Assembly (NCBI RefSeq): GCF_002159915.1
Contig: NZ_NFJP01000002.1
Location: 62,001 to 126,000 of the forward strand
Direction of reading: 5' to 3'
Length of the DNA stretch: 64,000 bases
Source: Gordonibacter sp. An230
GTDB taxonomy: Bacteria; Actinomycetota; Coriobacteriia; Coriobacteriales; Eggerthellaceae
Position 1 is the stretch's first letter, and each line of letters begins with the position of its first letter. Below are positions 15,108 through 54,196 of this stretch, one piece after another. The position numbers and the translations under genes were made by a program. The notes under the pieces were generated by a model. It saw nothing but the letters and a program-made list of their open reading frames with translations, was not told the origin of the DNA and ran no database searches.

Positions 15108-18100
15108 TCATCTGCGCATGCGGCAACGGGCGATCATCGCGGCCGCCACGACGGCTGCGACGGCCGCTGCGACCAAAAGGACAAGGTGAATTCCGGCATC
15201 GCCTGTTTTGGAAAGCCCGCCCTCGACGCTGCTCCCACCCTCGTCCTTTTTGGCATCGTCCTCGACGACGCCGTCCTCGACTGCGCCGCCTTCGACGCCG
15301 GTGTCGACCTCAACGCCGTCGCCCCCATCCGCCTCGGAACCGGAGCCGGGCGCCGAGCCGTCTCCCGGCCCGGGCTGCGGGTCAGGTTCGGGCACCGGTC
15401 CCACCTCCTGTTCAGGTGCGAAAGACCAGACGCCCCGGAGGACGAAGTCGCTGCCGGGGACGGTGGAGGGAGGCTCGCTCCATCCGACGAACGTCCACGT
15501 GCCCGACCCTTTCACGACCACCTCGGTCCGTACGGGTTGCGGCGCGGAGAGCGCCGCGCCCGCCGTGAAGGACTGCGCCGTCGGCAGCACGTCAAGAACC
15601 TCCTGAGGCAATTCCTGCCCGTCTTCCGCGGCGAATTCGAACGTGGCCGTAACAACAGCGGCGTCGAGCAGCACAGTCGTCTCGGCGCTCACGTTTCCGG
15701 CCGCATCTTGCGCAGTCGCGGAGACGCTTCCGCCAAACGCCACATCGAGGCCCGAAAGATCGATGGCTCCCTCGAAGACGCCCTCGGCCGCACCAGCCGC
15801 ATCAGCGGCACCGACGACCTGCTCGGCCAACAGCGTGCCGTCAGCAGCGCGCACCGTCCACGACACCGAGCTCACGCCGCTTGATTGCCGCACGTTCGCG
15901 GCGGCGGGGTCGCTCGCCTCGAAGAGCACGGACGACCCGTCCTCGCTGAGCACGAGGGCCACTTCGGGGGCAGTGCGATCAATGCGCACCTCGGTCGCAA
16001 GCGCTGCACTGCGGGCGCCAGCATGCCGTAGAGCATCGGCGGCCGCAGCGAACGTCAGCGAAGCCTCCGTAACGCCCTCTGCGTCGACGACGACCGAGGC
16101 GGCGAACTCCCCGCCCTCTTCGGCGACGAGCGTGTACGGGACCTCGCCATCAGAGAGTTTAGCAGACGGGCTCAGCTTCACCATCCCGCTGTTCGTCCAC
16201 GCGCCCTGCGCAACAGGATTACCGTCCGCATCGAAGGCCTCAAGCCAATCGCCTTGGGGCACATCCTGCTTCACCGTGAGCGTACCGGTCTGCACGGACA
16301 CGTCGTAGCACGCGTGCACGTTCTCCGGGATGGCCGTCACCGTATACTCCCCCGGCTCCATCGGCTGCTCGACCTCCACGCCAGTGGCCACGTCGGCGAA
16401 AGACAACGTCCAGTTCCCCACCGCGACGTCGTTCCCTACCACGGAGCCTCCCGAAAGGCTGGGAACGAAAACGGATGCGGGATCGTAGGTCTCTCCCGCG
16501 TAAATTTCGGCAGAGGGCACCTCGTAGGACAAACTGCGCTTGCCCACCGTTATCGGTACCCGTTTTTCGGACACGCTCGTCTCGGCCGCGGAAGAAAGCG
16601 GCCCCGGACGGCTCTCGACGGCGTACAGGCGAACGATGAGCTCGGTGGAACCCGCCGACACCGGCACGATCGATCCGTTCTCGATGCGAGCGACGCCCTC
16701 GTCGGCGATCTCGTAGGTGTAACGGTAGATGCCGGCGGAGTCGCTCGCAGGAAGCTCGAACGTCTGCCCTTCGCCGTACGCGAACTCGATGGGGTCGATG
16801 TCGAACGCATCGGACGGAATGTCGTCGCTCGCGAATCCGACGGAGCTGGAATTGCAGCGGTTGTCGTAGGCCACCACGCTGTAGACATGATCCGCGCCGT
16901 CGTTTGGCGGGTTGACATCCAGCAGCTTGTCGCCGTAGCGATCGTAGTCGATGAGCTGTCCGTCGCGATACAGCTCGTATCCATTGGTTGACGCGCTCAA
17001 ACCGTCCACGGCGGGCATCGTGGCGGTCACGGGAATCTGGCCATCGGCGTTTTTCTCCCCCACGAACACGATGGGCGCGACCTCCATGCCGTACTCGTCG
17101 TACGTTTTGCGACCGACCCCGTCATTGTTCGCGGAGTCGATGGTGAAGTACTGAACCTTGCGCGGAAGAGAGGGGTACTGCGAGCAGAAGTCCTTGACCT
17201 CCTGGGAGACGTTCGTCTTGCCCATCGACTCCACGTACTCGGCGAAGTTGTAGCCCGTGCTCATCGTGTGCGCCACGATGATGCGCATGGCTTTGTCGGC
17301 GGTAACGTTCGTGACGGCGCTCGCATTCTCGCGCAGGATGCGCATCGACGTGCCGAACGCCCCGTACCTGCCCACCTGCTCGGCCAGCTCTGGCGTGTAA
17401 GGGCTGGAATCGAAATCGTAGTCTGAGTAATCCCACTCATCGAAGAAATGCGTGCCCAGCCACCACATCATGGGGTTGTAGAAGCTGTCGCTCACGCCGC
17501 TGACGACGGCCTTCCCCTGCGGGTTGCGCGCGTTTTCTTTGTTGAGGGCGTAATGCTTCGTCAGACAGGTGTTCTTGATCTGGGGATGGTAATCCTCCCA
17601 ATGAATCTGGCCGTCTTGCCGGTACTTCCCGAGAATGCCGTAAAACACGCACTGCACCGAGTACACGTTGTTCGTCTGCTCAGTGATGACGGTGTTTCTG
17701 TTGTCCAGCATATGGCCGTACTCGTGCGACATGCCCCAAGCGTACATTATCTGACCTGAGAGGAACTGCGCCGCGGAGCTTTCCGGCATATGAAAGTACC
17801 ATCCAGACGCGAACATCGTCGACGGCTTTGTCACCGTGCTGGTGAAGCACGTATGCACGCGCATGGCGCTAGGACGATGCACGGGGTTGGGATCGTTCTC
17901 GTCAAAGCCGTCGAACCTCCACAGCATCTCCAGGCGCTCTTGGATGGCATCGTTCGATTTCTCGATGTAGGCAATGGCGTCGTCAACGCTGTTGATGGAG
18001 GAGTACATGTCCTTTGCAGCTTGAGAACGCAGACTGAACTGGGCATTCCCGTTATCGCCCATCTGGATGGCCGTCATGTTGGACGCACCCTCCGAAACGC

Positions 18101-20195
18101 GCGTGCTCTCGTACTCGCGGATCTCCTGCACGTAGTCCCAGAATTTTTCGGGATGCTCCGTGTCGTGGATGTAGTACGGATGCCTATGCAGAACGGTGCC
18201 GGCGATAGGGTCGTTGCCCTCTACGTTGGCGTCCGACCCCTCGAAGCGCACCCTCACGCCTGTATCCTCCGCGGAATCGTTCGCCACGAACAGCATCCAG
18301 CCTTTGTTCTGCCCGGGGTTGATGGTGATCTGGTTGGGGCCGTTTCGCAAGCCCGACTTGACGCGTCGACTGAGGAACTCGCTTTTGTTGCTGGAGGTCT
18401 CGCCCACCTGGCGCCACACGAGTTTGAGCTTGTCGGGGGTTTTCGCGCCATCGACGTACAGCGTGAACGTGCCCCCCTCCGGCTTGATGTAATACCCCGT
18501 GATATCCAGGTTGTCGAACTGGAAGCTCTGCCCGGTCCTCCCGATATCCGCGACCGGATCCCCCAGCGCCGACACGTCCATCACCGACGCCGCCATCTCG
18601 TCGTAATGCTCGGCAAGATGGGCTTTTTGACGCTTGACCCATTCCAGACGTGCAAGCCTGTCCTCCGATTCCTGGGAGTCCACGCCCTCGTAGAACTCGG
18701 TGACCTTCCGCTCGATCTCGGCGAAACGACCGTCATCGGCGATCTCGTCCTTGAACGTGAAACCGAGGTTGTCGGCGAAGGGGTTGTCCAGGAGGTCGAA
18801 GCACGCCTGCATGTCCTCGCTGGCCACGTACAGCGCATTGTCCCTGCTCTCCAGAGGAACCACCAGCCCGTCGCACAAAAACTTGATGGCGCTGCGGTTC
18901 GGTTCGACCGTCGCTCCGTCAATGAACGAGATCACCTTCGCGCCCTTCGGGTACGCCGCGCTTCCCCCGGCGACGAAGATGAGCGGCGAGTCCTTTGTGG
19001 CGCCGCCCTCGCCGATGTTCTGCGTGAAATTCACGATGGCGTTCTTGTCGATGACGATCCTGTCGCCGCCCTCGACGCGAGCCGTGCCGCCGATGTTGAG
19101 CGTGGCACCGCCGTTGATATGCAGGCCTGCCGCGTTGCCAGAGCTGTTGTTCTTGATGACTCCACCGGTCATCGTGAACGTGCTGCCGCTGACGTTGAGA
19201 ACGCCGTCCGAATACTTCGTGCTGTTGCCGCGTATCTCGCCGCCAGTCATGACGAACGTGCCGCGGTTGGTTCCCACCGCCTGGCTGTAGGAGACGCTGC
19301 CACCGGTCATGACGCCACTTTTGAACTCTATCGTACCGGTTGCCTTGTTCGAGAAGATGGCGTTGCGGCTAGCGTAGCTGCCGGAAATCGTGGCACCGTC
19401 GATGACCAGCAAGCCCTCGTTCTCCAGCATGCCCCATTCGTGGCCGGATTCCTTGTTGTTTACCACTTCGACGTTGGAAAGCAAGTGCAGTTCGGAATTC
19501 ACGCGCGCCACGAGCAGCGGATGGGATGCGTTTCGGTTCTCGCCATCGAGCGTCAGCGTGGCATCTTCGGCGCCTTGCACCTTCAGGACGGTGTTGCCCT
19601 TTGTCTCGAAAATGCCGAAGCCCAAGACCCCCTGCCCTTCGGAGCGAACGATAGCGGCAGGCGCGCCCGGATCGGTCTGGAGCGTCACTGTGCCCTTGTT
19701 CTCCAAGACGACCATATCGGTCGCGATGCTTCCGGATACCACGACGGCATCCCCGTCTCCCGCCGCATCGAAAGCGGCCTGCAGGGTACTGAACACCTGT
19801 TCTTCGCCCGAGGAAGGACGCAGCTTGATGGAGGCTTCGGAATCGACGGACGCCGGCTCAACCGTTTCGGCTTGATCGTTGGACTCGAGGGAGGCTTGCT
19901 TATCGGGCGCAGCCGGATCGTTGCCTTGCGCGACGACGAAGGGGAGCGAGCTTGCAGAAGCATCATCGAACGCAGAGGATGCAGTCGGCGCGATCGAGGT
20001 GCAGGAGTCGAGCGCAGTCGGCACGTCGAGCTGTTCCTTAGGAGCGGAGTCGGACGTTTCCCCCTGCACGTCGGACACGACCTGCGCGTTGGCGACCGCA
20101 AGAGCGGACGGCGTGGCATAGGCCGGAAACGTCAAACCGACCGACAAAGCCACTGCGACGGTGGCGGAGAGAACCTTTTTGCTTTGATGCTTCAT
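15108..20195 (-). CDS. Secreted, wall-anchored M60-family metalloprotease (mucin-type)
   Basis: A 1695-residue surface protein. It has a signal peptide (KKVLSATVAVALSVGLTFPA, YATPS), then a parallel beta-helix region (about 110-400) with repeated TMTGG-type turns, then the M60/enhancin catalytic part. The zinc motif HEYGH is at residues 824-828 with the downstream glutamate at 839, matching HExxH-x-E. C-terminal Ig-like and repeat domains follow from about 1080. The tail has the sortase-like signal LSKTG (1661-1665), a hydrophobic segment and a basic end. M60 enzymes often cleave mucin-type glycoproteins; that substrate is inferred. GAGGGG precedes the chosen ATG. Confidence 0.9.
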   Translation of the reverse strand: MKHQSKKVLSATVAVALSVGLTFPAYATPSALAVANAQVVSDVQGETSDSAPKEQLDVPTALDSCTSIAPTASSAFDDASASSLPFVVAQGNDPAAPDKQASLESNDQAETVEPASVDSEASIKLRPSSGEEQVFSTLQAAFDAAGDGDAVVVSGSIATDMVVLENKGTVTLQTDPGAPAAIVRSEGQGVLGFGIFETKGNTVLKVQGAEDATLTLDGENRNASHPLLVARVNSELHLLSNVEVVNNKESGHEWGMLENEGLLVIDGATISGSYASRNAIFSNKATGTIEFKSGVMTGGSVSYSQAVGTNRGTFVMTGGEIRGNSTKYSDGVLNVSGSTFTMTGGVIKNNSSGNAAGLHINGGATLNIGGTARVEGGDRIVIDKNAIVNFTQNIGEGGATKDSPLIFVAGGSAAYPKGAKVISFIDGATVEPNRSAIKFLCDGLVVPLESRDNALYVASEDMQACFDLLDNPFADNLGFTFKDEIADDGRFAEIERKVTEFYEGVDSQESEDRLARLEWVKRQKAHLAEHYDEMAASVMDVSALGDPVADIGRTGQSFQFDNLDITGYYIKPEGGTFTLYVDGAKTPDKLKLVWRQVGETSSNKSEFLSRRVKSGLRNGPNQITINPGQNKGWMLFVANDSAEDTGVRVRFEGSDANVEGNDPIAGTVLHRHPYYIHDTEHPEKFWDYVQEIREYESTRVSEGASNMTAIQMGDNGNAQFSLRSQAAKDMYSSINSVDDAIAYIEKSNDAIQERLEMLWRFDGFDENDPNPVHRPSAMRVHTCFTSTVTKPSTMFASGWYFHMPESSAAQFLSGQIMYAWGMSHEYGHMLDNRNTVITEQTNNVYSVQCVFYGILGKYRQDGQIHWEDYHPQIKNTCLTKHYALNKENARNPQGKAVVSGVSDSFYNPMMWWLGTHFFDEWDYSDYDFDSSPYTPELAEQVGRYGAFGTSMRILRENASAVTNVTADKAMRIIVAHTMSTGYNFAEYVESMGKTNVSQEVKDFCSQYPSLPRKVQYFTIDSANNDGVGRKTYDEYGMEVAPIVFVGEKNADGQIPVTATMPAVDGLSASTNGYELYRDGQLIDYDRYGDKLLDVNPPNDGADHVYSVVAYDNRCNSSSVGFASDDIPSDAFDIDPIEFAYGEGQTFELPASDSAGIYRYTYEIADEGVARIENGSIVPVSAGSTELIVRLYAVESRPGPLSSAAETSVSEKRVPITVGKRSLSYEVPSAEIYAGETYDPASVFVPSLSGGSVVGNDVAVGNWTLSFADVATGVEVEQPMEPGEYTVTAIPENVHACYDVSVQTGTLTVKQDVPQGDWLEAFDADGNPVAQGAWTNSGMVKLSPSAKLSDGEVPYTLVAEEGGEFAASVVVDAEGVTEASLTFAAAADALRHAGARSAALATEVRIDRTAPEVALVLSEDGSSVLFEASDPAAANVRQSSGVSSVSWTVRAADGTLLAEQVVGAADAAGAAEGVFEGAIDLSGLDVAFGGSVSATAQDAAGNVSAETTVLLDAAVVTATFEFAAEDGQELPQEVLDVLPTAQSFTAGAALSAPQPVRTEVVVKGSGTWTFVGWSEPPSTVPGSDFVLRGVWSFAPEQEVGPVPEPDPQPGPGDGSAPGSGSEADGGDGVEVDTGVEGGAVEDGVVEDDAKKDEGGSSVEGGLSKTGDAGIHLVLLVAAAVAAVVAAAMIARCRMRR

Positions 20196-20259
20196 GCGCA
20201 CCCCTCATCCGTGCAAACGAGACATTCACGCGCATGCCCTCTGGCAATGCAATCTTAAT

Positions 20260-24192: not shown

Positions 24193-24475
24193 GACGATCC
24201 TCGCCTGCCTGGCGGCGGCCATCGGCCACGGGGCGATCAACGGGTTCGTGAGCGCGGCGGTGCTGTTCTCGGCGACGGGCGGCAATCCGTTCGTGGGCCT
24301 CCTGCCCGTGGGCATCATCGGCGGCAGCGCCTTCATCGTCGTGGCGGCCCTCATGCTGTGGGACCTGCATCGCCGCGAGAAGGCGGGCACGCTCGACATG
24401 CCGAAGGCCGGCCTGCCCGACGGCATGACGAAGGCCGACCTGGCCCGCGCTCCTAGGGAGCAGCCCAGCGGCTAG
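24193..24475 (+). pseudogene. 3' fragment of a CPBP-family intramembrane protease gene
   Basis: About 93 codons without their own start, in a different frame from the LuxR gene that ends immediately before. The translation ILACLAAAIGHGAINGFVSA, then NPFVGLLPVGIIGGSAFIVV and a charged tail resembles the last two membrane helices of CPBP (CAAX/abortive-infection type) proteases, including the HxxxN motif (GHGAING). The 5' part, with the other catalytic motifs, is missing. The simplest reading is that the LuxR/flavoprotein module was inserted here and removed it. Confidence 0.65.
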
Positions 24476-24480
24476 CACAC

Positions 24481-24510
24481 GAACGGATGTTTCACGTGAA
24501 ACATCCGTTC
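24481..24510. promoter_or_regulatory. Perfect 30-bp palindrome containing a consensus parS site
   Basis: Arms GAACGGATGTTTCAC and GTGAAACATCCGTTC are perfectly complementary. The inner 16 bases (24488-24503), TGTTTCACGTGAAACA, equal the classic chromosomal parS sequence bound by ParB/Spo0J. It lies in the intergenic space between the CPBP remnant and leuB. parS sites usually sit in the origin-proximal part of the chromosome. A role as a terminator hairpin is also possible, but the exact parS core argues for ParB binding. Confidence 0.85.
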
Positions 24511-24525
24511 CCGCCCAACGGAAAA

Positions 24526-24557
24526 CGGGTCCCGATCTGCCGCCAGATCGGGACCCG
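24526..24557. terminator. Bidirectional terminator-like stem-loop after leuB
   Basis: A perfect 14-bp stem CGGGTCCCGATCTG/CAGATCGGGACCCG with a four-base loop, 55 bases beyond the leuB stop and between two convergent reading directions. No T-run follows on either strand, so termination by this structure is inferred. Confidence 0.55.
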
Positions 24558-24612: not shown

Positions 24613-25722
24613 CTACAGGCGCTCCACCACGAGGTCGCCCATGGCCACGGTGCCGACCAGCTTGTCTGCCGGGGTGTCGGGGCCCTTGATGTCGCCGGTG
24701 CGCCAGCCCTCGTCGAGGACGGCGGTCACCGCGCGGCGGACGTCGTCGGCCGCATCCTGCATGTCGAAGCTGTAGCGCAGCATCATCTCGACGGAGAGGA
24801 TCTGCGCGAGCGGGTTCGCGATGCCCTGCCCCGCAATGTCAGGCGCGCTGCCGTGGCTGGGCTCGTAGAGCGCCGTGCCGTCGCCGAGGCTGGCGCTGGC
24901 CAGCATGCCGAGCGAGCCCGTGATCTGGGCCGCCTCGTCGGAGAGGATGTCGCCGAACATGTTCTCGGTCACCACGACGTCGAAGTCGGCCGGGCGGTTG
25001 ATAAGCTGCATGGCCGTGTTGTCCACGAGCAGGTCCTCGAGCTCCACGTCTGCGTACTCCTCGTCGTGGATGCGGTGCACGATCTCGCGCCACATGCGGC
25101 TCGTCTCCAGCACGTTCGCCTTGTCGACGCTCGTCACCTTGTTGCGGCGCTTGCGCGCGGCTTCGAAGGCTTGGCGCGCGATGCGCTCGACCTCGTACTC
25201 GCGGTACTCGAGCGTGTCGTAGGCGCGCTGGCCGACAGCGCCGTCCGTGCCGCAACCTTCCTCGTCGTAGAAGCGCTCGCGACGGCCGAAGTACAAACCG
25301 CCGGTCAGCTCGCGCACGATCATCATGTCAACGCCGTCCACGATCTCGGGCTTGAGCGTGGACGCATCGGCCAATGCGGAGAAAATCTGCACGGGACGCA
25401 GGTTCGTGTACAGGCCGAGCGCCTTGCGGATGCCCAGCAGGCCCTGTTCGGGGCGCGGCTTCGCAGGATCGGTGGTGTCCCACTTCGGGCCGCCGACGGC
25501 CGCCAGCAGCACCGCGTCGGAGGCTTCGGCCGCGCGCAGCGTCTCGTCCGGCAGCGCGGTGCCCGTCGCGTCGATGGCGCACCCGCCGATGAGCGCCTCA
25601 GTGTAGGAGAGCGTCGTGTCGTACTTCGCGCCCACCGCGTCGAGCACCTTCACGCCTTCGGCGATGATCTCAGGCCCGATGCCGTCTCCGGGAAGCAGGC
25701 AGATGGTGTAGGTTGTGGTCAT
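24613..25722 (-). CDS. leuB: 3-isopropylmalate dehydrogenase
   Basis: Oxidises and decarboxylates 3-isopropylmalate to 2-oxoisocaproate, using NAD, in leucine synthesis. The 369-residue chain starts [17 protein letters not shown]. It carries the substrate-binding [10 protein letters not shown], the catalytic YxxxxY/K region ([20 protein letters not shown], then [16 protein letters not shown]) and the cofactor segment [29 protein letters not shown] precedes the chosen ATG; the frame is open upstream but that part is intergenic. It is the last gene of a leuC-leuD-leuB cluster without leuA. Confidence 0.97.
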
Positions 25723-40418: not shown

Positions 40419-41711
40419 GTGGAACTCAGAGAGATACCCGTCGAGGACGTCTACCCCGACGAGAAGAACCCCAGGAAGGACTTCGGCGACATCGCCGCGC
40501 TCGCCGAGAGCTGCATGCTCAACGCGATCAGCCCCGGCGAGCCGGTGAACCCGATCGTCGTGGTGGCCGACGGGGGTATCTACCGCATCGTGGACGGCGA
40601 GCGCCGGTACAAGGCGATGAAAATGAACAAGCTCAAGCGCTGCCACGCCGTGGTGTGCGAGGACCTGGACGAGGCCAACTCCCTGGTGGCCATGGTGGCG
40701 ACCGACGACAAGCAGCAGCTCTCGGAGATCGAGCGCAGCCGCGGCGTGCAGCAGATGCTGCTCCTGGGAGTCGACCCGGAGCGCGTCGAGCGGGTCGGCC
40801 GCATGCCGAAGGGCAGCGCCGCCAGGCTGCGCCGTGCGCGGGCGGCCGTGGACGACGCGGGCGACGACATGACGCTCGACCGGATGCTCGCCATCGCGGA
40901 GTTCGAGGAGGCGGGCGACGCGGAGGCCGTGGAGCGGCTGGCGAGCTGCCGGGAGGCCGAGTGGTCGGCCGTGGCGCGCAGCATCCGCGAGGAGCGCGAG
41001 ACCGCCGAGAAGACCGAGGCCCTGCGCCGCGCGTGCGCCGAAGCGGGGATCGCGCTCGAAGAGGACGTCCCGGGCTACGAGGACGGCTACGTGTACCGGA
41101 CGAGCGAGAGCCGCCCGTCGGCGGTGGCGGAGGCGTTCGGAAGGCTCCCCGAGGGCTCGCTCGCGTGGCTCTGCGAGAAGAGCTACGGCGGCCCCGAGGT
41201 GCGCTTCTACTGGCCCGTGAACGGAGCGGCGGACCCCGATGCAGAGAGGCGCGCCGAGCTCGCCCACGAGGCCGAGGGGATGATCAAGTCGGGCGCGGAG
41301 AGAAGGCTGCGCTGGTTCGCGCGGACGGTCGCCGACGCCGACGCGTGCCCCAACGTGAGGGGCATGCTGCTCGACTCCTTCTTCGACGAGTCCAGGCTCG
41401 ACAGCGATCCGACCGACAAACTGGAGAGGTTCGTCGAGCGCGCGGGGATCGCGCCCGATATCCCCCGCGCGCTGTCGGGCGCGATGGCGGCGTACCTGTA
41501 CGAGACAGAGAACGGCGAGCTCCCGCTCTGGTACGCCCGCAACCTGGTCGACGGAGGGAGGCTGCGCGAATGGGAGGTCGGATATGCTGAGCGGTGGTTG
41601 CGGTGGCTGAACACGTGCTGCCTCGACGGGTACAAGGCCGACGAGGCCGACGAGGCCCTGGCGGACATGGTCGACGACGCGCTGGCCACCGCACGAGAGG
41701 AGGAGGAGTAG
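40419..41711 (+). CDS. ParB/Srx-domain protein
   Basis: A 430-residue protein. The first 90 residues are a ParB-like nucleotidase fold (LREIPVEDVYPDEKNPRKDF, then IYRIVDGERRYKAMKM, with the GERR box). A helical DNA-binding part and an acidic unrecognised C-terminal half follow. In phages such proteins may act as nucleases, DNA-binding factors or modification adaptors rather than in partition. I chose the GTG behind TAGGAGAAGAATA. It leads the recombination/replication block. Confidence 0.85.
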   Translation: MELREIPVEDVYPDEKNPRKDFGDIAALAESCMLNAISPGEPVNPIVVVADGGIYRIVDGERRYKAMKMNKLKRCHAVVCEDLDEANSLVAMVATDDKQQLSEIERSRGVQQMLLLGVDPERVERVGRMPKGSAARLRRARAAVDDAGDDMTLDRMLAIAEFEEAGDAEAVERLASCREAEWSAVARSIREERETAEKTEALRRACAEAGIALEEDVPGYEDGYVYRTSESRPSAVAEAFGRLPEGSLAWLCEKSYGGPEVRFYWPVNGAADPDAERRAELAHEAEGMIKSGAERRLRWFARTVADADACPNVRGMLLDSFFDESRLDSDPTDKLERFVERAGIAPDIPRALSGAMAAYLYETENGELPLWYARNLVDGGRLREWEVGYAERWLRWLNTCCLDGYKADEADEALADMVDDALATAREEEE

Positions 41712-41712
41712 C

Positions 41713-43131
41713 ATGGCCGTGAAGATCAGCAGCCTGGAGATCGAGAACGTCAAGCGGGTGAAGGCCGTCGCCATGGAGCCGTCCGAGAGCGGACTCACCG
41801 TCATCGGCGGGCGCAACGGGCAGGGCAAGACGAGCGTGCTGGACGCCATCGCGTGGGCGCTCGGCGGCGACCGCAAGCGCCCGACCGACGCGAGGCGCGA
41901 GGGCAGCGCGACCGACCCGCATCTCAAGGTGACACTCTCGAACGGCGTTGTCGTGGAGCGCAAGGGCAAGAACTCGTCGCTCAGGGTGACCGACCCCGAG
42001 GGGCGCAAGGGCGGCCAGCAGCTGCTCGACTCGTTCGTCGAAGCGCTCGCCCTCGACCTGCCCAAGTTCTTGATGAAGTCGGACAAGGAGAAGGCCGACG
42101 ACCTGCTGCGCATCATCGGCGTTGGAGAGGAGCTGGCGCGCCTCGAGGAGAAGGAGCGGACGCTCTACAACCAGCGGACCGGCATCGGCCAGATGCGCGA
42201 CCGGAAGCGGGGCGCCGCCGCGGACATGCCGATGCACCCCGACGCGCCCGCCGAGCCCGTGAGCGCCATGGATCTGATACAGGCGCAGCAGAAGATCCTG
42301 GCCCGCAACGGCGAGAACCAGCGCAAGCGCCAGCGGCGCGCCGAGCTCGAGGGAGAGCGGAGCGCGGCCGCGGCCGAGGTAGCGTCGGCCCAGGAGCAGG
42401 TGCGCCTCGCCAACGAGCGCCTCGCCGCCGCGGAGAGCAGGCTCGCGGGCATCGCGTCCGAATGCGCGGAGGCGGCGAAGACCGCCGAGCAGCTGGTCGA
42501 CGAGTCCACCGTCGAGATCGAGGAGCAGCTGGAGCGGATCGAGACGGTGAACGCCAAGGTGCGCGACAACCAGCGCCGCGCCGACGCAACGCGCGAGGCC
42601 GAGGAGCTGGCGGCCCAGTACGAGGACATGACCGAGCGGATAGAGGCCGTGCGCGCCGCCAAGCGGGCGCTCCTCGACGGGGCCGACCTGCCCCTGCCGG
42701 GGCTTTCCGTGGAGGGCGGCGCGCTCGCCTACGGCGGGCGGCGATGGGACTGCATGAGCGGGTCCGAGCAGCTGCGCGTGGCCACCGCCATCGTGCGCAG
42801 GCTCAAGCCGGAGTGCGGCTTCGTCCTGGTGGACAAGCTGGAGCAGATGGACGCGGAGACGATGCGCGGGTTCGGCGAGTGGGCCGAGGCCGAGGGGCTG
42901 CAGGTGATCGCCACCCGCGTGTCCACCGGCGGCGAGTGCAGCATCGTGATAGAGGACGGCTACGGGATGGCCGCGGACAGGGCGACGGAGGAGATCGCAG
43001 TCTCGAAGAGCCTGGCGGAGTGCGCCGACGGCAACGGCTGCGGCGAGTGCTCGATCCCGCGCAACGGGACGTGCGAGCGCGCGGACGACCCCGAGGAGGC
43101 CATCGATCCGGCCGCGAAGTGGGTGATGTAA
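41713..43131 (+). CDS. SMC/RecN-like coiled-coil ATPase
   Basis: A 472-residue ATPase of the RecF/SbcC/SMC type. Walker A is GGRNGQGKTS (residues about 32-41); a central coiled coil spans about 190-320; the ABC signature region is CMSGSEQLRVATAIV and Walker B FVLVDKLEQMD. The C-terminus has a cysteine cluster (CADGNGCGECSIPRNGTC) that could bind metal and is unusual. Such phage ATPases take part in recombination-dependent replication. The ATG overlaps the upstream stop region by one base spacing. Confidence 0.85.
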   Translation: MAVKISSLEIENVKRVKAVAMEPSESGLTVIGGRNGQGKTSVLDAIAWALGGDRKRPTDARREGSATDPHLKVTLSNGVVVERKGKNSSLRVTDPEGRKGGQQLLDSFVEALALDLPKFLMKSDKEKADDLLRIIGVGEELARLEEKERTLYNQRTGIGQMRDRKRGAAADMPMHPDAPAEPVSAMDLIQAQQKILARNGENQRKRQRRAELEGERSAAAAEVASAQEQVRLANERLAAAESRLAGIASECAEAAKTAEQLVDESTVEIEEQLERIETVNAKVRDNQRRADATREAEELAAQYEDMTERIEAVRAAKRALLDGADLPLPGLSVEGGALAYGGRRWDCMSGSEQLRVATAIVRRLKPECGFVLVDKLEQMDAETMRGFGEWAEAEGLQVIATRVSTGGECSIVIEDGYGMAADRATEEIAVSKSLAECADGNGCGECSIPRNGTCERADDPEEAIDPAAKWVM

Positions 43132-44166
43132 ATGGCCCTCAACATCACGCGCGGCAAGATGGACAAGGCCCAGAGGGTCGTGGTGTACGGCCCCGAGGGA
43201 ATCGGCAAGACGACGCTCGCCGCGCAGTTCCCCGACCCGCTCTTCATCGACGTGGAAGGATCGACCGGGCATTGCGACGTGGCGCGCGTGGACCCCGCGC
43301 CGGCGAGCTGGCAGGCGCTGCTGGAGACGGTGCGCGCCGTCAAGGCGGAGCGCCCCTGCGCCACGCTCGTGCTCGACACCGCCGACTGGGCCGAGCAGCT
43401 CTGCATCGCCCACGTGTGCGCCGAGCGGAAGTGGAAGGGCATCGAGGATCCGGGCTACGGGAAGGGCTACACCTACCTCGCCGAGGAGTTCGGAAAGCTG
43501 CTCAACCTGCTCTCCGACGTCGCCGCGGCCGGGATGCACGTCGCGGTGTGCGCGCACGCCATGATGCGGAAGTTCGAGCAGCCCGACGAGGCGAGCGCTT
43601 ACGACCGGTGGGAACTCAAGCTGCAGCGCAAGACCGCGCCGATGGTGAAGGAATGGGCCGACGCGGTGCTGTTCCTGAACTGGAAGACGACCGTCGAGGC
43701 CGTCGGGGACGGAAAGGCCAAGGCGCGCAACGCCAGGCGCACCATGTTCTGCCAGCACCACGCGTGCTGGGACGCGAAGAACCGCTGGGGGCTCCCCGAC
43801 GAGGTCCCGGCCGACTACGGGCAGATCGCTCCGTTCCTCCGGCCAGCCTCCGCGCCGGAGGCGTCCCCCGCCCCGGCGCCTCAAGCCCCCGCGCCCCATG
43901 GCGGGACGCCCGACGCGGCCCTGCCCGGCTTCTGGGCGCCGGCCCTGCAGCTCATGGAGGGCATCGGGGCCACGGTAGACGAGGTGCGCGCGGTGAGCGC
44001 CGCGAAGGGCCACCATTCCACCGACACACCCGCCAAGAACTACGAGCAGGCCTACGTCGAAGGATGCATCGTGGCGCAGTGGCCGAAGTGGGTCGAGGAG
44101 ATCCGCAAGCTGCGCAAGGAGCGCGAGCCGGTGCCGTTCGGCGCTCCGGACATGACCAAGATCTAA
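43132..44166 (+). CDS. Sak4-like RecA-fold ATPase
   Basis: A 344-residue ATP-binding protein (AAA_24 type). Walker A GPEGIGKTT is at residues 20-28, and the Walker B-like strand is TLVLDTADW. The C-terminal third has a Pro/Ala linker and a helical tail. Sak4-family proteins act in phage single-strand annealing recombination, together with an SSB-like protein, which here is the next gene. It starts directly after the stop of the SMC-like gene. Confidence 0.82.
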   Translation: MALNITRGKMDKAQRVVVYGPEGIGKTTLAAQFPDPLFIDVEGSTGHCDVARVDPAPASWQALLETVRAVKAERPCATLVLDTADWAEQLCIAHVCAERKWKGIEDPGYGKGYTYLAEEFGKLLNLLSDVAAAGMHVAVCAHAMMRKFEQPDEASAYDRWELKLQRKTAPMVKEWADAVLFLNWKTTVEAVGDGKAKARNARRTMFCQHHACWDAKNRWGLPDEVPADYGQIAPFLRPASAPEASPAPAPQAPAPHGGTPDAALPGFWAPALQLMEGIGATVDEVRAVSAAKGHHSTDTPAKNYEQAYVEGCIVAQWPKWVEEIRKLRKEREPVPFGAPDMTKI

Positions 44167-44182
44167 GAGAGAGGACCGACAC

Positions 44183-44716
44183 ATGGCAGACAACACCGAA
44201 TTGGGCGAGGCCCTGGACTGGGACGACGAGGTGTCCGACGAGGGAGGGTTCACCCTCCTGCCGGCCGGGACGTACCCGTTCGAAGTCGCGAAGGTCGAGA
44301 AGGAGTACTTCGAGGGATCGAACAAGATGGCTCCCTGCCCGCGCGCCGCGGTCACCCTCAACGTCCTCACGGACACCGGATGGGTGCCGCTTGTGGACCG
44401 GCTCATGCTCAACACCAAGACCGCATGGCGCGTGGCCAGGTTCTTCGAGAGCCTCGGGTTCGAGAAGGAGCCGAACGCCGAGGGCAAGATGGTCATGCGC
44501 CCCCACTGGAACGAGATCGTCGGCAGGCAGGGCTGGGCGAAGATCAAGGTGCGGACGTACGCCAAGAAGGACGGCGGCGAGGGCGAGGCCAACGACGTGG
44601 ACACCTACCTCAGGCCCGCCGAGTGGCCCGAGCGGCCCGAGCCCGCGCAGACGAGCATCCCCGTTCACGAGCAGCCCGCGCCCGCCCAGCCCGCGCACCA
44701 GAGCTGGGACATGTGA
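44183..44716 (+). CDS. DUF669-type single-stranded-DNA-binding-like protein
   Basis: A 177-residue protein of the phage DUF669 type. An acidic start (EALDWDDEVSDEGGF) leads to LLPAGTYPFEVAKVEKEYFE and a beta-rich OB-like body with AWRVARFFESLGFEKEP. The C-terminus is a Pro/Gln linker ending QSWDM, much like the acidic tip of SSB proteins that recruits partners. It sits between the Sak4-like and helicase genes, which supports a ssDNA-binding role. AGAGAGGACCGACAC is a plausible ribosome site. Confidence 0.78.
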   Translation: MADNTELGEALDWDDEVSDEGGFTLLPAGTYPFEVAKVEKEYFEGSNKMAPCPRAAVTLNVLTDTGWVPLVDRLMLNTKTAWRVARFFESLGFEKEPNAEGKMVMRPHWNEIVGRQGWAKIKVRTYAKKDGGEGEANDVDTYLRPAEWPERPEPAQTSIPVHEQPAPAQPAHQSWDM

Positions 44717-46326
44717 TGGCGCCGGTGGAGCTCAGGCCGTACCAGCAGGAGGCGCGCGAGGCCGTCGAGCGCGAGTGGGGCGAGGGGCGCGCGAAGACGC
44801 TCCTCGTCCTGCCCACCGGCACCGGGAAGACCGTCGTGTTCGCGATGGTCGCCAAGGACGCGGTGGACGCCGGCGGACGCGTGCTCGTGCTCGCCCACAG
44901 AGGCGAGCTGCTGGAGCAGGCCGCGGACAAGATAGGGGCCGCCACGGGGCTCGGGTGCAGCGTGGAGAAGGCCGAGCGCACGAGCCTCGGCGAATGGTTC
45001 CGCGTGACGGTGGGCAGCGTGCAGACGCTGATGCGGGAGAGCCGACTTGCGCGGTTCGGCCACGACCACTACACGCACATCGTCGTGGACGAGGCGCACC
45101 ACGCGCTCTCCGACAGCTACCGGGCGGTGCTCGACTGGTTCCCGGAGGCGCGCGTGCTCGGCGTGACCGCCACGCCCGACCGCGGCGACCGCAAAAACCT
45201 CGGCGCGCTCTTCGACAGCATCGCCTACGAGTACACGCTGCCCCGCGCCATCAAGGAGGGCTACCTCTGCCCCATCAAGGCGCAGACGGTGCCGCTCGAG
45301 ATCGACCTGTCCGCCGTGAAGGTGCAGTCGGGCGACTACGCGGCCGGCGACCTCGGCACGGCGCTCGACCCGTACCTGGACCGCATCGCCGATGAGATGC
45401 TGGCGGCGGGCTGCATGGAGCGCAAGACCGTGTGCTTCCTGCCCCTCGTCAAGACCGCGAAGAAGTTCCGCGGGATCCTCGCCGCCAAGGGCTTCAACGC
45501 ATACGAGGTCGATGGCGAGAGCTTCGACCGGGCCGAAGTGCTGGCGAAGTTCGACGCGGCGGGAGGCGGGACCGCGCTCTGCAACTCGATGCTGCTCACC
45601 GAGGGATGGGACTGCCCGAGCGTGGACTGCGTGGTGGTGCTGCGCCCGACGAAGGTGCGCTCGCTGTACTGCCAGATGGTCGGGCGCGGCACGCGCCTGT
45701 CCCCGGAGACGGGCAAGACGGAGCTGCTCCTGCTCGACTTCCTGTGGCACGTCGAGCGCCACGAGCTGTGCCGCCCCGCGCACCTCGTCGCCGAGGGCGA
45801 GGAGGTGGCCCGCGCCATGACCGCGCGCTTGGAGGCGGCCGGGCGCCCCGAGGACCTGGAGGAGGTGGAGCGCGAGGCCGCCAAGGACGTGGTGGAGGAG
45901 CGCGAGCGGAGGCTGGCCGAGGAGCTGGCGTCCATGCGCAGGCGCAAGCGCCGCCTCGTGGACCCGCTCCAGTACGAGATGAGCATCATGGCCGAGGACC
46001 TGTCCGGCTACGTGCCGTCGTTCGGCTGGGAGGCGGCCCCGGCGAGCGAGGCCCAGCGCAGCGCCCTGGAGAGGGCCGGCATCGACCCCGACGGCGTGGA
46101 GTGCTCCGGCAAGGCGAGCCTGCTGCTCGACCGCCTGGCCAAGCGCAGGGCCGAGGGGCTGGCCACCCCTCGCCAGATACGGCAGCTCGAGGGCCGGGGC
46201 TTCCGGCGCGTGGGCGAATGGACGGCCGGCCAGGCGTCGGCGCTCATCAGCCGCATCGCCGCCAACGGCTGGCGCACGCCCGCCGGCATCCGCCCCGCCG
46301 AGTACGACCCCGCCCTGGGGAGGTAG
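44716..46326 (+). CDS. Superfamily-2 DEAD/DEAH-box helicase
   Basis: A 536-residue helicase of the SSL2/RAD25 and type III restriction-like group. Motif I PTGTGKT, motif II DEAHH (VVDEAHHALSD), motif III VTATPDR and motif VI QMVGRGTRLS are all clear. The C-terminal 150 residues are an extension with coiled coil (REAAKDVVEERERRLAEELA). It probably unwinds phage DNA during replication. The ATG overlaps the SSB-like stop by one base. Confidence 0.92.
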   Translation: MAPVELRPYQQEAREAVEREWGEGRAKTLLVLPTGTGKTVVFAMVAKDAVDAGGRVLVLAHRGELLEQAADKIGAATGLGCSVEKAERTSLGEWFRVTVGSVQTLMRESRLARFGHDHYTHIVVDEAHHALSDSYRAVLDWFPEARVLGVTATPDRGDRKNLGALFDSIAYEYTLPRAIKEGYLCPIKAQTVPLEIDLSAVKVQSGDYAAGDLGTALDPYLDRIADEMLAAGCMERKTVCFLPLVKTAKKFRGILAAKGFNAYEVDGESFDRAEVLAKFDAAGGGTALCNSMLLTEGWDCPSVDCVVVLRPTKVRSLYCQMVGRGTRLSPETGKTELLLLDFLWHVERHELCRPAHLVAEGEEVARAMTARLEAAGRPEDLEEVEREAAKDVVEERERRLAEELASMRRRKRRLVDPLQYEMSIMAEDLSGYVPSFGWEAAPASEAQRSALERAGIDPDGVECSGKASLLLDRLAKRRAEGLATPRQIRQLEGRGFRRVGEWTAGQASALISRIAANGWRTPAGIRPAEYDPALGR

Positions 46327-46329
46327 GCC

Positions 46330-48579
46330 ATGGACGGGAGAGGATACGACCTGGCCGAGTGCCTGGCCGCCATCGACCCGGCCTCGCTGAGCTACGAGGA
46401 GTGGCTCCATGCGGGCATGGCCCTGCACGCCGAGGGGTACGGCTGCGATGTGTGGGAGGCGTGGAGCCGGCGCGACACGGCGCGCTTCCGCGAGGGCGAG
46501 TGCGCGAAGAAGTGGCGCGGCTTCGGCCGGTCGCCGAGCGAGGTCAAGGGCGGCACCCTCGTCCAGATGGCCCGCGACGCGGGATGGTCGCCGGACGGCG
46601 CGGACGGGCGCGGCGAGGCGCTGGGCTGGGACGACGACGTGGGCGGCGACGGGACGGGCGGACGCATCGTCGACCCGTCGTGGGTCGAAGCGCGCGAGGT
46701 CGTCGAGCCGGCCGGCGAGTGGCGCGGCTGGCAGGAGGCCGTGCGCTACCTCGAGGCGCTGTTCGACGCCGACGAGGTGGTGGGCTACGTGGTGGAGGCC
46801 TGGGACAAGGACGGGCGATGGGTGCCGTCCGGCAAGGGGCCGCACGGCCGCACCGCCGGAGAGCTCGTGGCGGCGCTTACAAAATACAAGGACGACCTCG
46901 GCGCGTCCATCGGGCAGCCCAACCCCGAGGCGGGCGCGTGGATCCGGTTCAACCCGCTCGACGGCAAGGGCGTGCGCAACGAGAACGTCGCGGAGTACCG
47001 CCACGCCCTCGTGGAGAGCGACGACATGCCCGTGGAGCGCCAGCTGGCCATCATCGAGGAGCTGGAGCTGCCCGTGGCGGCCCTCGTGCACAGCGGGAAC
47101 AAGAGCCTGCACGCCGTCGTCAAGGTGGAGGCGAAGGACTACGACGAGTACCGCAGGCGCGTGGACTACCTCTACCGGACATGCCTCGACAACGGGCTCA
47201 AGATCGACACCCAGAACAAGAACCCCAGCCGCCTGTCCCGCATGCCGGGCGTGATGCGCTCCGGCCGCAAGCAGTGGCTCGTGGCCACGGACGTTGGAAA
47301 GGCGTCGTGGGACGAATGGCGCGAGTGGATCGACGAGCAGAACGACGACCTGCCCGATCCCGAGAGCCTGGCCGGCGTCTGGGACGACCTGCCGGAGCTG
47401 TCCCCGCCGCTCATCGACGGGGTGCTGCGCCAGGGCCACAAGATGATGCTCGGCGGCCCCAGCAAGGCGGGCAAGTCGTTCGCGCTCATCGAGCTGTGCG
47501 TGTCGATCGCGGAGGGCGTCCCCTGGCTCGGCTTCGGCTGCGCCCAGGGCCGCGTGCTCTACGTGAACCTGGAGCTGGACCGGGCGAGCTGCCTGCACCG
47601 CTTCCGCGACGTGTACGACGCCATGGGCGTGGAGCCGGCGAACCTGGCCAGCATCGACGTGTGGAACCTGCGCGGCAAGGGCAAGCCCATGGACCGGCTG
47701 GCCCCCTCGCTCATACGCCGCGCGCTGAAGACACGGCCCATCGCGGTCGTGATCGACCCCATCTACAAGGTCATCACGGGCGACGAGAACTCGGCCGACC
47801 AGATGGCGGCGTTCTGCAACCAGTTCGACCGCGTGGCCACCGAGCTGGGGTGCGCCGTCGTGTACTGCCACCACCACAGCAAGGGACTGCAGGGCCAGAA
47901 GCGCAGCATGGACCGCGTGAGCGGTTCGGGCGTGTTCGCCCGCGACCCCGACGCCCTCCTGGACATGATCGAGCTGGAGCAGACCGACGCGCTGCGCCGG
48001 CAGCAGGAGGACGCCGCCGTGTGCGCCGCGCTCGAGCGCGTCATGGCCGAGCGCGGGCCGGGCGGCTGGCAGGACGTGGTCGGGGAGGACGACCGCGCGA
48101 GCGCCGAGCGGTTCCTGGAGGGCGCGCGGGCGCTCCTCGGCCGGGAGGACGAGCGGGCGATGCTCGACGCCGTGCACACGGCGCGCAAGGCGGCCTCCCA
48201 GCGCACCGCGTGGCGCATAGAGGGCACGCTGCGCGAGTTCCCTCGCTTCGAGCCGCTGAACCTGTGGTTCGACCACCCGGTGCACCGGACGGACGCCACG
48301 GGCGCGCTCGCGGACCTCGAGAGCGACGGGGCGGGCAACGCCTGGGCGGGGAGGCCCGGGCGCAACCGCCAGGCGAAGAGCAAGGCGGAGAAGGCCGCAG
48401 AGCGCAGGCAGGCCGTCGAGGAGGCGTTCGGGGCGTGCGACATGGGCGAGGGCGTGACCGTCAAGGAGGTGGCCGATTTCATGGGCGTGAGCGAGAAGAC
48501 GGCCCGCGCGAGGGCCGCGGAGCACGGCGGGTTCTGGGTCAAGGGCGGCACGATCGGAAGACGGAAGGAAGGAAAATAG
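46330..48579 (+). CDS. Phage primase/replicative helicase (PriCT_2 and AAA RepA-like)
   Basis: A 749-residue replication protein. The N-terminal part (LAAIDPASLSYEEWLHAGMA) is a PriCT_2-like primase C-terminal module; a primase/polymerase-type region follows at about 130-340 (HSGNKSLHAVVKV, PSRLSRMPGVMR, as in D5-like or bifunctional primases). The ATPase half (about 365-560) has Walker A GGPSKAGKSF and Walker B VVIDPIYKV with CHHHSKG. A helix-turn-helix (VTVKEVADFMGVSEKTARAR) closes the protein. The gene ends inside the first copy of an origin-like repeat. Confidence 0.85.
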   Translation: MDGRGYDLAECLAAIDPASLSYEEWLHAGMALHAEGYGCDVWEAWSRRDTARFREGECAKKWRGFGRSPSEVKGGTLVQMARDAGWSPDGADGRGEALGWDDDVGGDGTGGRIVDPSWVEAREVVEPAGEWRGWQEAVRYLEALFDADEVVGYVVEAWDKDGRWVPSGKGPHGRTAGELVAALTKYKDDLGASIGQPNPEAGAWIRFNPLDGKGVRNENVAEYRHALVESDDMPVERQLAIIEELELPVAALVHSGNKSLHAVVKVEAKDYDEYRRRVDYLYRTCLDNGLKIDTQNKNPSRLSRMPGVMRSGRKQWLVATDVGKASWDEWREWIDEQNDDLPDPESLAGVWDDLPELSPPLIDGVLRQGHKMMLGGPSKAGKSFALIELCVSIAEGVPWLGFGCAQGRVLYVNLELDRASCLHRFRDVYDAMGVEPANLASIDVWNLRGKGKPMDRLAPSLIRRALKTRPIAVVIDPIYKVITGDENSADQMAAFCNQFDRVATELGCAVVYCHHHSKGLQGQKRSMDRVSGSGVFARDPDALLDMIELEQTDALRRQQEDAAVCAALERVMAERGPGGWQDVVGEDDRASAERFLEGARALLGREDERAMLDAVHTARKAASQRTAWRIEGTLREFPRFEPLNLWFDHPVHRTDATGALADLESDGAGNAWAGRPGRNRQAKSKAEKAAERRQAVEEAFGACDMGEGVTVKEVADFMGVSEKTARARAAEHGGFWVKGGTIGRRKEGK

Positions 48580-48708
48580 CGTGCTCGCTTCCCTGCTCCC
48601 TGATCGGGAAAATAGCGATTATTTTCCCTTCCTTCCCGATCGGGAAACCTCCGCTATTTTCCCTTTTCCGGATCGGGAGGAAAAAAGCGGGAATCCCGGC
48701 TATTTTCC
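48571..48708. repeat. Inverted decanucleotide repeats, putative phage replication origin
   Basis: Four copies of GGAAAATAGC: two forward (48571-48580, 48607-48616) and two reversed (48653-48662, 48699-48708), spaced 36, 46 and 46 bases. CCGATCGGGAA/GATCGGGA palindromes and T/A-rich tracts lie between them. The first copy includes the primase stop codon. Position right after the primase gene and iteron-like spacing suggest an origin, or a binding array for a phage replication protein. Confidence 0.65.
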
Positions 48709-48725
48709 CGATCCGGGAGTAACGG

Positions 48726-48828
48726 TACCCCCCTACGGGGGGTAAAGGGTTTCCCTTCCCTCCGGTCAGAGGGGAAAGGAAGGCGGGCTAAAGCTGCGCC
48801 CGCCGTCCTCCCTTCCCCTGCCTCTGAC
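48726..48828. other. Strong stem-loops after the repeat array
   Basis: First a palindrome TACCCCCCTACGGGGGGTA (48726-48744). Then a large imperfect hairpin from GTCAGAGG (48765) to CCTCTGAC (48828), with a GCGGGC/GCCCGC top. These could terminate the early transcript or form part of the origin. They account for the rest of the 295-base gap up to 48874. Confidence 0.55.
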
Positions 48829-48874
48829 AAAGCATGCAATTCTCAAGTCTAACTGATAGACGAAAGGTAGCAAT

Positions 48875-48970
48875 ATGAATTTCGGCAGGATCGTGAGAAC
48901 GGACATCGCGGCGGACGAGAACGGCGTCACCGCCACCATGCGCCCCGAGAAGGGAGGCGATGCATCATGA
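48875..48970 (+). CDS. 31-residue phage micropeptide
   Basis: Very short gene: MNFGRIVRTDIAADENGVTA followed by a charged tail ending GGDAS. AAAGG sits seven bases before the ATG, and the stop overlaps the next ATG as ATGA, so it is likely to be translated and coupled. Function unknown. Confidence 0.55.
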   Translation: MNFGRIVRTDIAADENGVTATMRPEKGGDAS

Positions 48971-49230
48971 GCTGGGAAATGGAGGCGACAACCACGTGTC
49001 CTTACGAAGACGCGGCCGAGGCGAGGCGCAAGGGGTACACGGCGTGCGGCACGTGCGCGGTGCCCGACTACGCGTGCGGCAAGATCGACGAGCGCGAATG
49101 GGCGAAAAGGCACTGCCCGAAAGGCTGCCCGGATCCCGAGCGGTGGAACCTTGGTTGCTGGAACTGCGAGGAGATGCATGACGCCAACAGCGTTGCCTTG
49201 CCATGCAGGCGAAAGGAGCCTGGGGCATGA
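48967..49230 (+). CDS. Cysteine-rich small phage protein
   Basis: An 87-residue protein with ten cysteines in patterns that suggest zinc binding (CGTCAVPDYACGK, HCPKGCPDPERWNLGCWNCE). Unrecognised family. ATGA overlap with the upstream micropeptide and with the downstream membrane protein shows tight coupling. Confidence 0.72.
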   Translation: MSWEMEATTTCPYEDAAEARRKGYTACGTCAVPDYACGKIDEREWAKRHCPKGCPDPERWNLGCWNCEEMHDANSVALPCRRKEPGA

Positions 49231-49427
49231 GGACGGCTGCCATGTGGCTGCGCGACGAGCTGCCGTACTACCTCGCCATGGCGCTGATGACCGCAGCGAT
49301 GATCCTCGCCTGCATCGCATTCCTTGCCTGGGCGCTGCTGTGCCGGCTCGCCAAGCCCGTTGCGGCGGTAGCCTGCGTCGCCATCGTCTGCTGGGCCGCC
49401 CTCAAGGCCATGGGGGTGCTGCCATGA
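49227..49427 (+). CDS. Two-helix phage membrane protein
   Basis: A 66-residue protein with two hydrophobic helices (YYLAMALMTAAMILACIAFL and VAAVACVAIVCWAALKAM). Both ends overlap neighbouring genes by four bases. The start follows AAGGAG by eight bases. It might be holin-like, but its place between early genes and RusA argues against a lysis role. Confidence 0.65.
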   Translation: MRTAAMWLRDELPYYLAMALMTAAMILACIAFLAWALLCRLAKPVAAVACVAIVCWAALKAMGVLP

Positions 49428-49855
49428 TCGAGTTCTTCGAGCCGATGGTGCCGCCGACGGCCACGCACAACGACCTGGAGCCGTGCATGCGCCGAGGGAG
49501 GCCCTCGATCCGCAAGTCCGACGCGCTGCTCGAGGCGGAGGCGGCATGGCGCGCGCATCTGGCCCGCCACGCCCCTGCAGCGCCCCTCAGGGGCCCGATC
49601 TCCGTCGAGATGCGCATCTGCTGGCCGACGGGGGGAACCCATCCCCAAGGGGCGCCCCACGCCGTCAAGCCGGACGCCGACAACGTGGAGAAGACCGTGT
49701 TCGACGTCATGGCCTCCCTCGGGTTCTTCGAAAACGACAGCCGGATCGCGCTGCACACGACGGCGAAGCTGTGGAGCGACCCGGCGGGAATCTACGCGAG
49801 GATGGAGGAGCTGCCGGGATCGCGCGGGGAGGGGGCGGCGTGCGATGGGGTTTAG
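49424..49855 (+). CDS. rusA: RusA-type Holliday junction resolvase
   Basis: A 143-residue nuclease of the RusA family. The diagnostic acidic motif KPDADNVEKTVFDVM holds the metal-binding aspartates. The start overlaps the previous stop as ATGA. It resolves branched recombination and replication intermediates and fits the SMC/Sak4/SSB set upstream. Confidence 0.9.
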   Translation: MIEFFEPMVPPTATHNDLEPCMRRGRPSIRKSDALLEAEAAWRAHLARHAPAAPLRGPISVEMRICWPTGGTHPQGAPHAVKPDADNVEKTVFDVMASLGFFENDSRIALHTTAKLWSDPAGIYARMEELPGSRGEGAACDGV

Positions 49856-50270
49856 ACTCGAAGCGGCCAGGCCCGGCGAGACGGAGAGGGTGTGCGAGAG
49901 ATGCTTGCGGGCCTACTTGCCCGCAAGCAGGACGCAGCGGTTCTGCCCGGATTGCGGCAGGCCGAGGCCTTACACGAGCGAGACCGCGGCGAAAAGAGAA
50001 TCCAATGGTGCGAAGGAGGCAGAGAGGTTCATGGACGCGAACCTGAAGGGCTTGAACGACGCGCTGTTCCGCCAGCTCGAGCGAATCGAGGGCGCGGGAA
50101 CGTCCGACGAGCTCGAGACGGAGGTGAGCCGCGCCAACAGCGTGTGCAAGATCGCCGAGACCATCATCGGCAACGGCAAGCTGGTGCTCGAGGCCAGCAG
50201 GGCGAGTATGGCCACGGCGGAGTCCGTGCAGGTTCCCAAGATGCTCCTCGGAAGGGGCGACGGAGAGTGA
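49845..50270 (+). CDS. Zinc-ribbon phage protein
   Basis: A 141-residue protein. The first 45 residues carry a zinc ribbon (CERCLRAYLPASRTQRFCPDC). A helical part follows (AERFMDANLKGLNDALFRQL). It overlaps the rusA end by 11 bases and the HNH start by four. The function is unknown; it is possibly a late regulator or HNH accessory. Confidence 0.65.
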   Translation: MGFRLEAARPGETERVCERCLRAYLPASRTQRFCPDCGRPRPYTSETAAKRESNGAKEAERFMDANLKGLNDALFRQLERIEGAGTSDELETEVSRANSVCKIAETIIGNGKLVLEASRASMATAESVQVPKMLLGRGDGE

Positions 50271-50932
50271 GGACGAGGTACACGCCCGAGCGCGTCGGGT
50301 TCCTGAGAGAGCATTCCCCCGGCCATTCAGCGCAAGAGTTGGCCGACATGTTCAATTCGAGGTTCGGCACGACTGCGAGCCGCAAGGCCATCTACATGGC
50401 GTGCAGGGCCAACGGAATAGGAGGGCTTGTCAACAAAGGACGCTTTCACAAGGGCATGACCGCGCCGAACAAGGGTAAGACGTGGGACGATCTGTACACG
50501 CCCGAGCAGCAGGAGCACATCCGAGCGCACCTATACAAGCCGGGGAACATGTCGGCAAAGGGTATGCGCTACCCCGTCGGTTCCGAGCGCGAGGGCAAGG
50601 ACGGTTACGTGTACGTGAAGGTGTGCGAGAGTTCGCGCGATGCGATGGCCACGGGTGCGAAGTCCTCGCAGTGCTGGCGCTTGAAGCATCACCTAGCGTG
50701 GGAGCGCGAGAACGGCAAGCCCGTCCCCGATGAATCCTTCATCGTGTTCGCGGACGGAGACAAGCGCAACTTCGCGCCGGAAAACCTCGTGTGCGTCAGC
50801 CGCGGCGACTACAACCTGCTGAACAACACGAAGATGCCCCGCTACTACGACGCGGAGTCCCTGAAGGCGTGCAGCGCGCTGGCGAAGCTTAAGAGGGCGG
50901 CGAAAGGGAGGGCGCGCGACCCGCGCGGGTGA
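50267..50932 (+). CDS. HNH endonuclease
   Basis: A 221-residue protein. An N-terminal helix-turn-helix for DNA binding (YTPERVGFLREHSPGHSAQE) precedes a C-terminal HNH_3 nuclease (WRLKHHLAWERENGKPVPDE, then VFADGDKRNFAPENLVCVSR). The GTG overlaps the previous stop as GTGA. HNH enzymes encoded next to the terminase are needed for DNA packaging in several cohesive-end phages, so this one may cooperate with the terminase; a free-standing homing-type endonuclease is the alternative. Confidence 0.85.
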   Translation: MRTRYTPERVGFLREHSPGHSAQELADMFNSRFGTTASRKAIYMACRANGIGGLVNKGRFHKGMTAPNKGKTWDDLYTPEQQEHIRAHLYKPGNMSAKGMRYPVGSEREGKDGYVYVKVCESSRDAMATGAKSSQCWRLKHHLAWERENGKPVPDESFIVFADGDKRNFAPENLVCVSRGDYNLLNNTKMPRYYDAESLKACSALAKLKRAAKGRARDPRG

Positions 50933-52734: not shown

Positions 52735-52744
52735 GGAGCAGATC

Positions 52745-54193: not shown

Positions 54194-54196
54194 CGC

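Follow-up and report, generated by a model that had tools for sequence, protein, structure and literature searches.

The window analysed here, a stretch of 64,000 nucleotides from Gordonibacter sp. An230, carries an exact copy of the 16-base parS sequence, TGTTTCACGTGAAACA, which is the sole match in the window even when three mismatches are allowed; any match at this tolerance (up to 3 mismatches) was obtained in 5 of 100 shuffled windows. The site has arms on both sides, in the order GAACGGA-parS-TCCGTTC, and it is because this 7-bp arm flanks parS both left and right that the whole forms a perfect palindrome of 30 bp (Table 1). The preliminary description of this DNA had named the exact 16-base parS, the 30-bp palindrome and an adjacent leuB, and all three were recovered, the 3' end of leuB lying 109 bp to the right of parS. 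On the left, the site is preceded by a short ORF without a Pfam match, possibly a gene fragment. A GC-rich hairpin followed by TTTT, read from the sequence on the leuB strand, is the likely terminator of leuB; it was not called by a strict terminator scan and is likely separate from the parS palindrome. Elsewhere in the window, a phage-like block (40419-55039) contains genes for a ParB_N-domain protein (40419-41711) and a terminase large subunit (50929-52734), and a 1697-aa ORF (15108-20201) encodes a protein that by eye looks secreted and cell-wall anchored.

Table 1. Features at the parS site beside leuB, and places of the 64-bp parS doublet (window positions unless a contig is given)
Feature	Position	Strand	Basis or remark
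Short ORF, possible gene fragment	24248..24475	+	Markov-model gene finder; ends 12 bp left of core
Left arm, TCCGTTC on minus (GAACGGA on plus)	24481..24487	-	sequence
30-bp perfect palindrome (arm, parS, arm)	24481..24510	.	RNA: 13-pair hairpin, -24.1 kcal/mol
parS core TGTTTCACGTGAAACA	24488..24503	.	exact; 63 exact copies in genome
Right arm TCCGTTC, fits TYYGTDC	24504..24510	+	sequence
GC-rich hairpin then TTTT, likely leuB terminator	24522..24557	- (leuB strand)	read from sequence; inference
leuB, 3-isopropylmalate dehydrogenase	24613..25722	-	PF00180, E 6e-137
64-bp doublet	G053:C1:190833-190896, 15814-15877, 316842-316905; G000:C8:152-215		

At the leuB loci of seven relatives, ~1.5 kb of DNA was searched for parS with a tolerance of 3 mismatches, and 0 of 7 had such a site; the sequence directly 3' of leuB differs by eye from that of the window in the seven relatives compared. 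On this comparison by eye, the insertion hot spot that the preliminary description had placed at the site is plausible. Since it is found in none of the seven, the window site may be young, and any function of its own is putative.

The genome-wide count of exact parS sites, which the preliminary description had proposed as a check, returned 63 copies in the source genome (G000, 3.88 Mb in 73 contigs), rising to 95 when up to two mismatches are allowed, while the reversed 16-mer used as a control has 0 copies there. Among 138 genomes of Eggerthellaceae, 28 genomes from 11 genera contain 20-148 exact copies, and most genomes contain 0-8. Outside this family, the maximum was 4 copies in a sample of 396 genomes of the class and 33 copies in a sample of 396 genomes of the phylum searched with a shorter, inner 14-mer; the latter value falls in a genus with genomes of 6-10 Mb and a range of 8-33 copies, which is probably Streptomyces. 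By these counts, the chromosome-wide parS array is peculiar to part of the Eggerthellaceae. Additional records from the family are Eggerthella sinensis DSM 16107, with 12 parS sites in the 21 kb around parB and an 80% identical ParB, and a Gordonibacter record with 12 parS sites and a ParB that matches the one from genome G066 exactly. Copy number correlates with genome size (Spearman 0.49 over the 95 of 138 genomes with at least 90% completeness, phylogeny being ignored). We found no report of parS proliferation in Eggerthellaceae in the literature searched, which did not cover the 2007 parS survey.

The distribution of the sites along the chromosome was reconstructed in G053, a relative with a closed genome (3,632,260 bp in one contig), where 124 of 130 parS sites were mapped and 6 remained unmapped, and where the origin and terminus were placed by the GC skew of sampled stretches together with a DnaA-like ORF at 1.2 kb. 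The skew is mostly positive to ~1.85 Mb and negative past 1.9 Mb, and parB lies at 3,625,821. The density of parS is 330 per Mb within 50 kb of the origin and 150 per Mb at 50-100 kb, and beyond 100 kb it takes the values 70, 35, 40, 20, 7, 18 and 8 per Mb in the outward direction. Thirty-two sites, a quarter of those mapped, lie more than 600 kb away from the origin; three of these, at 1.836-1.844 Mb, adjoin the skew switch near the terminus. The assembly of the source genome is divided into 73 contigs, and the window was positioned by leuB synteny: leuB is separated from parB by ~416 kb (G066), 483 kb (G020), 732 kb (G063), 746 kb (G053) and 867 kb (G052) in five closed relatives, and the window therefore probably lies in the middle of a chromosome arm. 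The preliminary description had reasoned from parS to an origin-proximal window, and this reasoning fails in a clade whose parS sites reach the terminus and in which five closed relatives have leuB 0.42-0.87 Mb from parB. That the window site marks origin-proximal DNA is in keeping with the position of the densest parS sites of the clade at oriC, but we consider it very unlikely in view of these leuB-parB distances and of the arms of the window site, which are a feature of distal sites. A location far from oriC had also been named as a ground for dismissing the site; the location is probable by synteny, but it does not discredit the site, since purifying selection acts on parS sequences as a class, as judged from the sites of relatives.

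This selection was assessed in G053 and G052, two related species of one genus, over the 118-140 kb adjoining the origin to which the test is confined. Seventeen sites of G052 gave 13 syntenic intervals in G053, 12 of which contain an exact parS; in the reverse direction, the initial 118 kb of G053, with 26 sites, provided 22 intervals, 15 of which contain an exact parS in G052. In a comparison with another genus (G063), an exact parS was present in 4 of 7 intervals. Across the 12 orthologous pairs, the core is 100% identical, whereas the flanks, compared without gaps, agree at 56% of positions over 10 bp and at 50% over 30 bp; at 87% base identity, 12 exact cores out of 13 would have a probability of 3e-11. 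The spectrum of mismatches in the fetched G053 DNA is likewise dominated by intact copies, with 111 exact sites, 14 with one, 4 with two and 1 with three mismatches. As for the sparse distal sites, they could alternatively be tolerated and not useful.

Most distal sites have in their flanks a common motif, TYYGTDC, which follows the 16-mer immediately and on one side only. It was found as 81 oriented matches in G053 and, with a slightly looser pattern, as 52 in G020, and any match to it occurs in 34 of the 138 family genomes, namely 27 of the 28 high-copy genomes and 7 others; the high-copy exception is G084, with 33 parS sites and no arm. In G053, the arm accompanies 1 of the 24 sites that lie no farther than 20 kb from the origin and 75 of the other 100 (p 9e-11). 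In the source genome, where the context of 43 of the 63 exact copies was inspected, none of the 18 sites around parB is armed, against 14 of the 25 others (p 6e-5). Of the 76 armed sites of G053, 5 have the two-armed form seen in the window. Two candidate roles for the arm were rejected. A KOPS-like polar guide is ruled out by the lack of strand bias of the arm between the replichores of G053 (23:26 vs 8:14, p 0.45). The Gram-positive LexA/SOS box has the form CGAAC-N4-GTTCG, and a LexA box composed of the arm and half of parS is unsupported, with 2 boxes in the fetched G053 DNA vs 2 in its shuffle.

Between co-directional genes, the arm points downstream in 26 cases and upstream in 8 (p 0.003), as counted with approximate gene calls and with some sites orthologous between G053 and G052; the calls came from a home-made Markov finder that is poor in the AT-rich origin region, together with a rough long-ORF rule. 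This directionality is what would be expected if the armed sites were gene-regulatory operators, bound by ParB or another protein, and did not organise the chromosome. We regard this as improbable, given that the distance to the next gene varies from 16 to more than 1000 bp, that sites occur in all orientations and within genes, and that no promoter-like site was seen near the window copy. In two regions of G053 (C1:72603-74007 and 194661-196999), exact parS sites fall within predicted coding sequences, up to three per gene.

The extended palindromes could be explained in another way, as being mainly transcription terminators whose hairpin contains parS or is built on it. Perfect palindromes extended by at least 6 bases, with unrelated stems, enclose 28 of 223 sites, many of them within ~25 bp of a gene 3' end, one site of G052 combines an A tract, a GC stem and a T tract, and the RNA hairpin of the window site, at -24.1 kcal/mol, has a z of -4. 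Some parS sites thus appear to be fused with terminators. As a general account, however, the terminator function is quite unlikely: the extension is shorter than 6 bases in 195 of the 223 sites, sites are found in all gene orientations including divergent ones, 40 of the 223 are inside called genes, and a terminator with a variable stem does not need an exact 16-mer. Nor does a common terminator repeat, raised in the preliminary description as grounds for doubt, fit the window site, which is without a T tract and next to which leuB seems to have its own, separate hairpin. In the regions around parB (L181, L183, L087 and L088), several parS sites near the origin form the apex of long, perfect, terminator-like hairpins, which lie next to the 3' ends of genes and differ in their stems.

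A one-sided arm beside a palindrome is a REP-like architecture, and the armed sites resemble it, which raises the possibility that parS is the passenger of a spreading REP- or MITE-like repeat, mobilised by a transposase and sometimes present as a 64-bp doublet. Such doublets, in which two parS sites are separated by 32 bp with an inner inverted repeat, were found in ~9 places in three genomes; the order of their elements is parS, a TTTGTTC arm, the inner inverted repeat around TTGTCGCA...TGCGACAA and the second parS. A mobile repeat is nevertheless an unlikely source of the array, as no flank beyond the 7-8 bp arm is common to most sites (the doublet being a partial exception), degenerate copies are few, the core is under selection, density tracks the distance from the origin, and the arm is nearly missing from the origin cluster.

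The protein expected to bind these sites was found throughout the genomes searched, with a ParB match over the whole parB_part model in 30 of 30, and no second match covering the whole model was present among the matches listed for these 30 genomes. Alignment with Caulobacter ParB (6t1f) places R, A, E and G at the positions equivalent to Caulobacter 173, 179, 184 and 201 in the recognition region SKGRSTVANALRLLELP...TAGHAR. The parS-specific state of ParB has been described as RXXG, with the equivalents of R173 and G201 and no K at 179 or 184 (PMC7383237), and by these specificity residues the source genome encodes a parS-type ParB. An altered specificity of ParB was rejected, the residues of the recognition helix being nearly invariant in 15 aligned ParBs. 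A short stretch, VSRET, in the N-terminal linker of ParB from G053, G052, G058, G010, G011 and G085 can be encoded by the 16-mer, which suggests that a parS site lies inside parB. All 92 good-quality genomes of the family keep ScpB (131 of 138 when every genome is counted), and therefore loss of Smc-ScpAB does not explain the tolerance of many sites, as far as ScpB shows. A tree of 28 of the 30 ParBs (the two omitted come from shorter loci than the others) brings most high-copy genomes together, but only 6 of its 25 inner branches are well supported; for this reason the tree cannot say how often the high-copy state arose, and a simple single origin of this state is not established by it.

Taken together, we favour the reading, with a probability of roughly 0.7, that the window site is a functional, armed, ori-distal loading site for ParB within a chromosome-wide array, its binding by ParB being predicted. 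We infer ParB occupancy, clamp loading, SMC loading and a role of the arm from evidence that is sequence-based, namely the copy number, the gradient, the selected core, the arm with its rarity around the origin, the ParB residues and the presence of ScpB. In the proposed mechanism, the canonical chromosomal ParB would recognise the 16-mer and load as a CTP-dependent clamp, with the dense and mostly armless cluster at oriC and parAB forming the partition complex. The sparser, mostly one-armed sites on both chromosome arms would seed more ParB clamps, and probably load SMC as well, in a graded manner around the chromosome. The 7-bp arm probably serves to tune the ori-distal sites, either by an additional contact with ParB or by way of a second protein, and such tuning would keep them from competing as centromeres. 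More tentatively, and at less than even odds, the centromere of these gut actinobacteria may consist of two classes of sites, in which plain parS at the origin builds the partition complex and armed parS provides a ParB-loading array graded from ori to ter.

The array shares with the chromosomal parS of B. subtilis, Caulobacter and Corynebacterium the identical 16-mer, a canonical ParB, a cluster at oriC and parB, and ScpB. It differs from chromosomal ParABS systems in the number of sites, 1-23 there versus 63-148 in the richest genomes here, and in their spread to the terminus with a one-sided arm on most distal copies. Arrays of many parS sites, mostly near the origin, are also known in Streptomyces and Listeria, for which 20-23 sites near the origin are described (PMC7333895, PMC5815017); the sites reported in these accounts are near the origin, whereas in the Eggerthellaceae array a quarter are more than 600 kb away and the copy number is several-fold higher. 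The nearest analogy is provided by the half-parS sites of P. aeruginosa, 7-bp sequences (GTTCCAC, GTTTCAC) that are proposed to retain ParB on the nucleoid (PMC10419367) and that are genome-wide targets of ParB beyond the origin, as the sites described here are predicted to be; the sites of the present array differ from those reported half-sites in being full exact palindromes that are conserved and armed. In Firmicutes, Noc is a ParB paralogue with chromosomal 16-bp palindromes, NBS (PMC7383237), but here the sequence is that of parS, not NBS, and the ParB has parS-type residues.

Published work sets limits on such arrays. The counts of parS given in PMC7333895 and PMC5815017 range to ~20-23, and extra parS is described there as tolerated only when no more than ~500-650 kb away from the origin or the native cluster, while both Caulobacter and P. 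aeruginosa are harmed by additional copies at a great distance from the origin (PMC5815017, PMC7333895). In B. subtilis, moving strong parS sites apart is reported to lead to noticeable collisions of Smc (PMC8357415). Given the harm in Caulobacter and P. aeruginosa, free loading of ParB at distal sites would need special tolerance. A clade that has ScpB and yet carries more than 100 parS sites, some of them as far away as the terminus, constitutes a natural exception to the published limits, and makes it testable what confines bacterial centromeres to the origin, with the arm, scarce near the origin, as a concrete molecular handle. In this clade, parS copies extend to the terminus, and parS is therefore unfit as an origin marker in genomes or metagenome bins of Eggerthellaceae. 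If the distinction between plain and armed sites is true, a directional arm, recognised by ParB itself or by another factor, would license parS in chromosomal regions in which additional centromeres are toxic to other bacteria.
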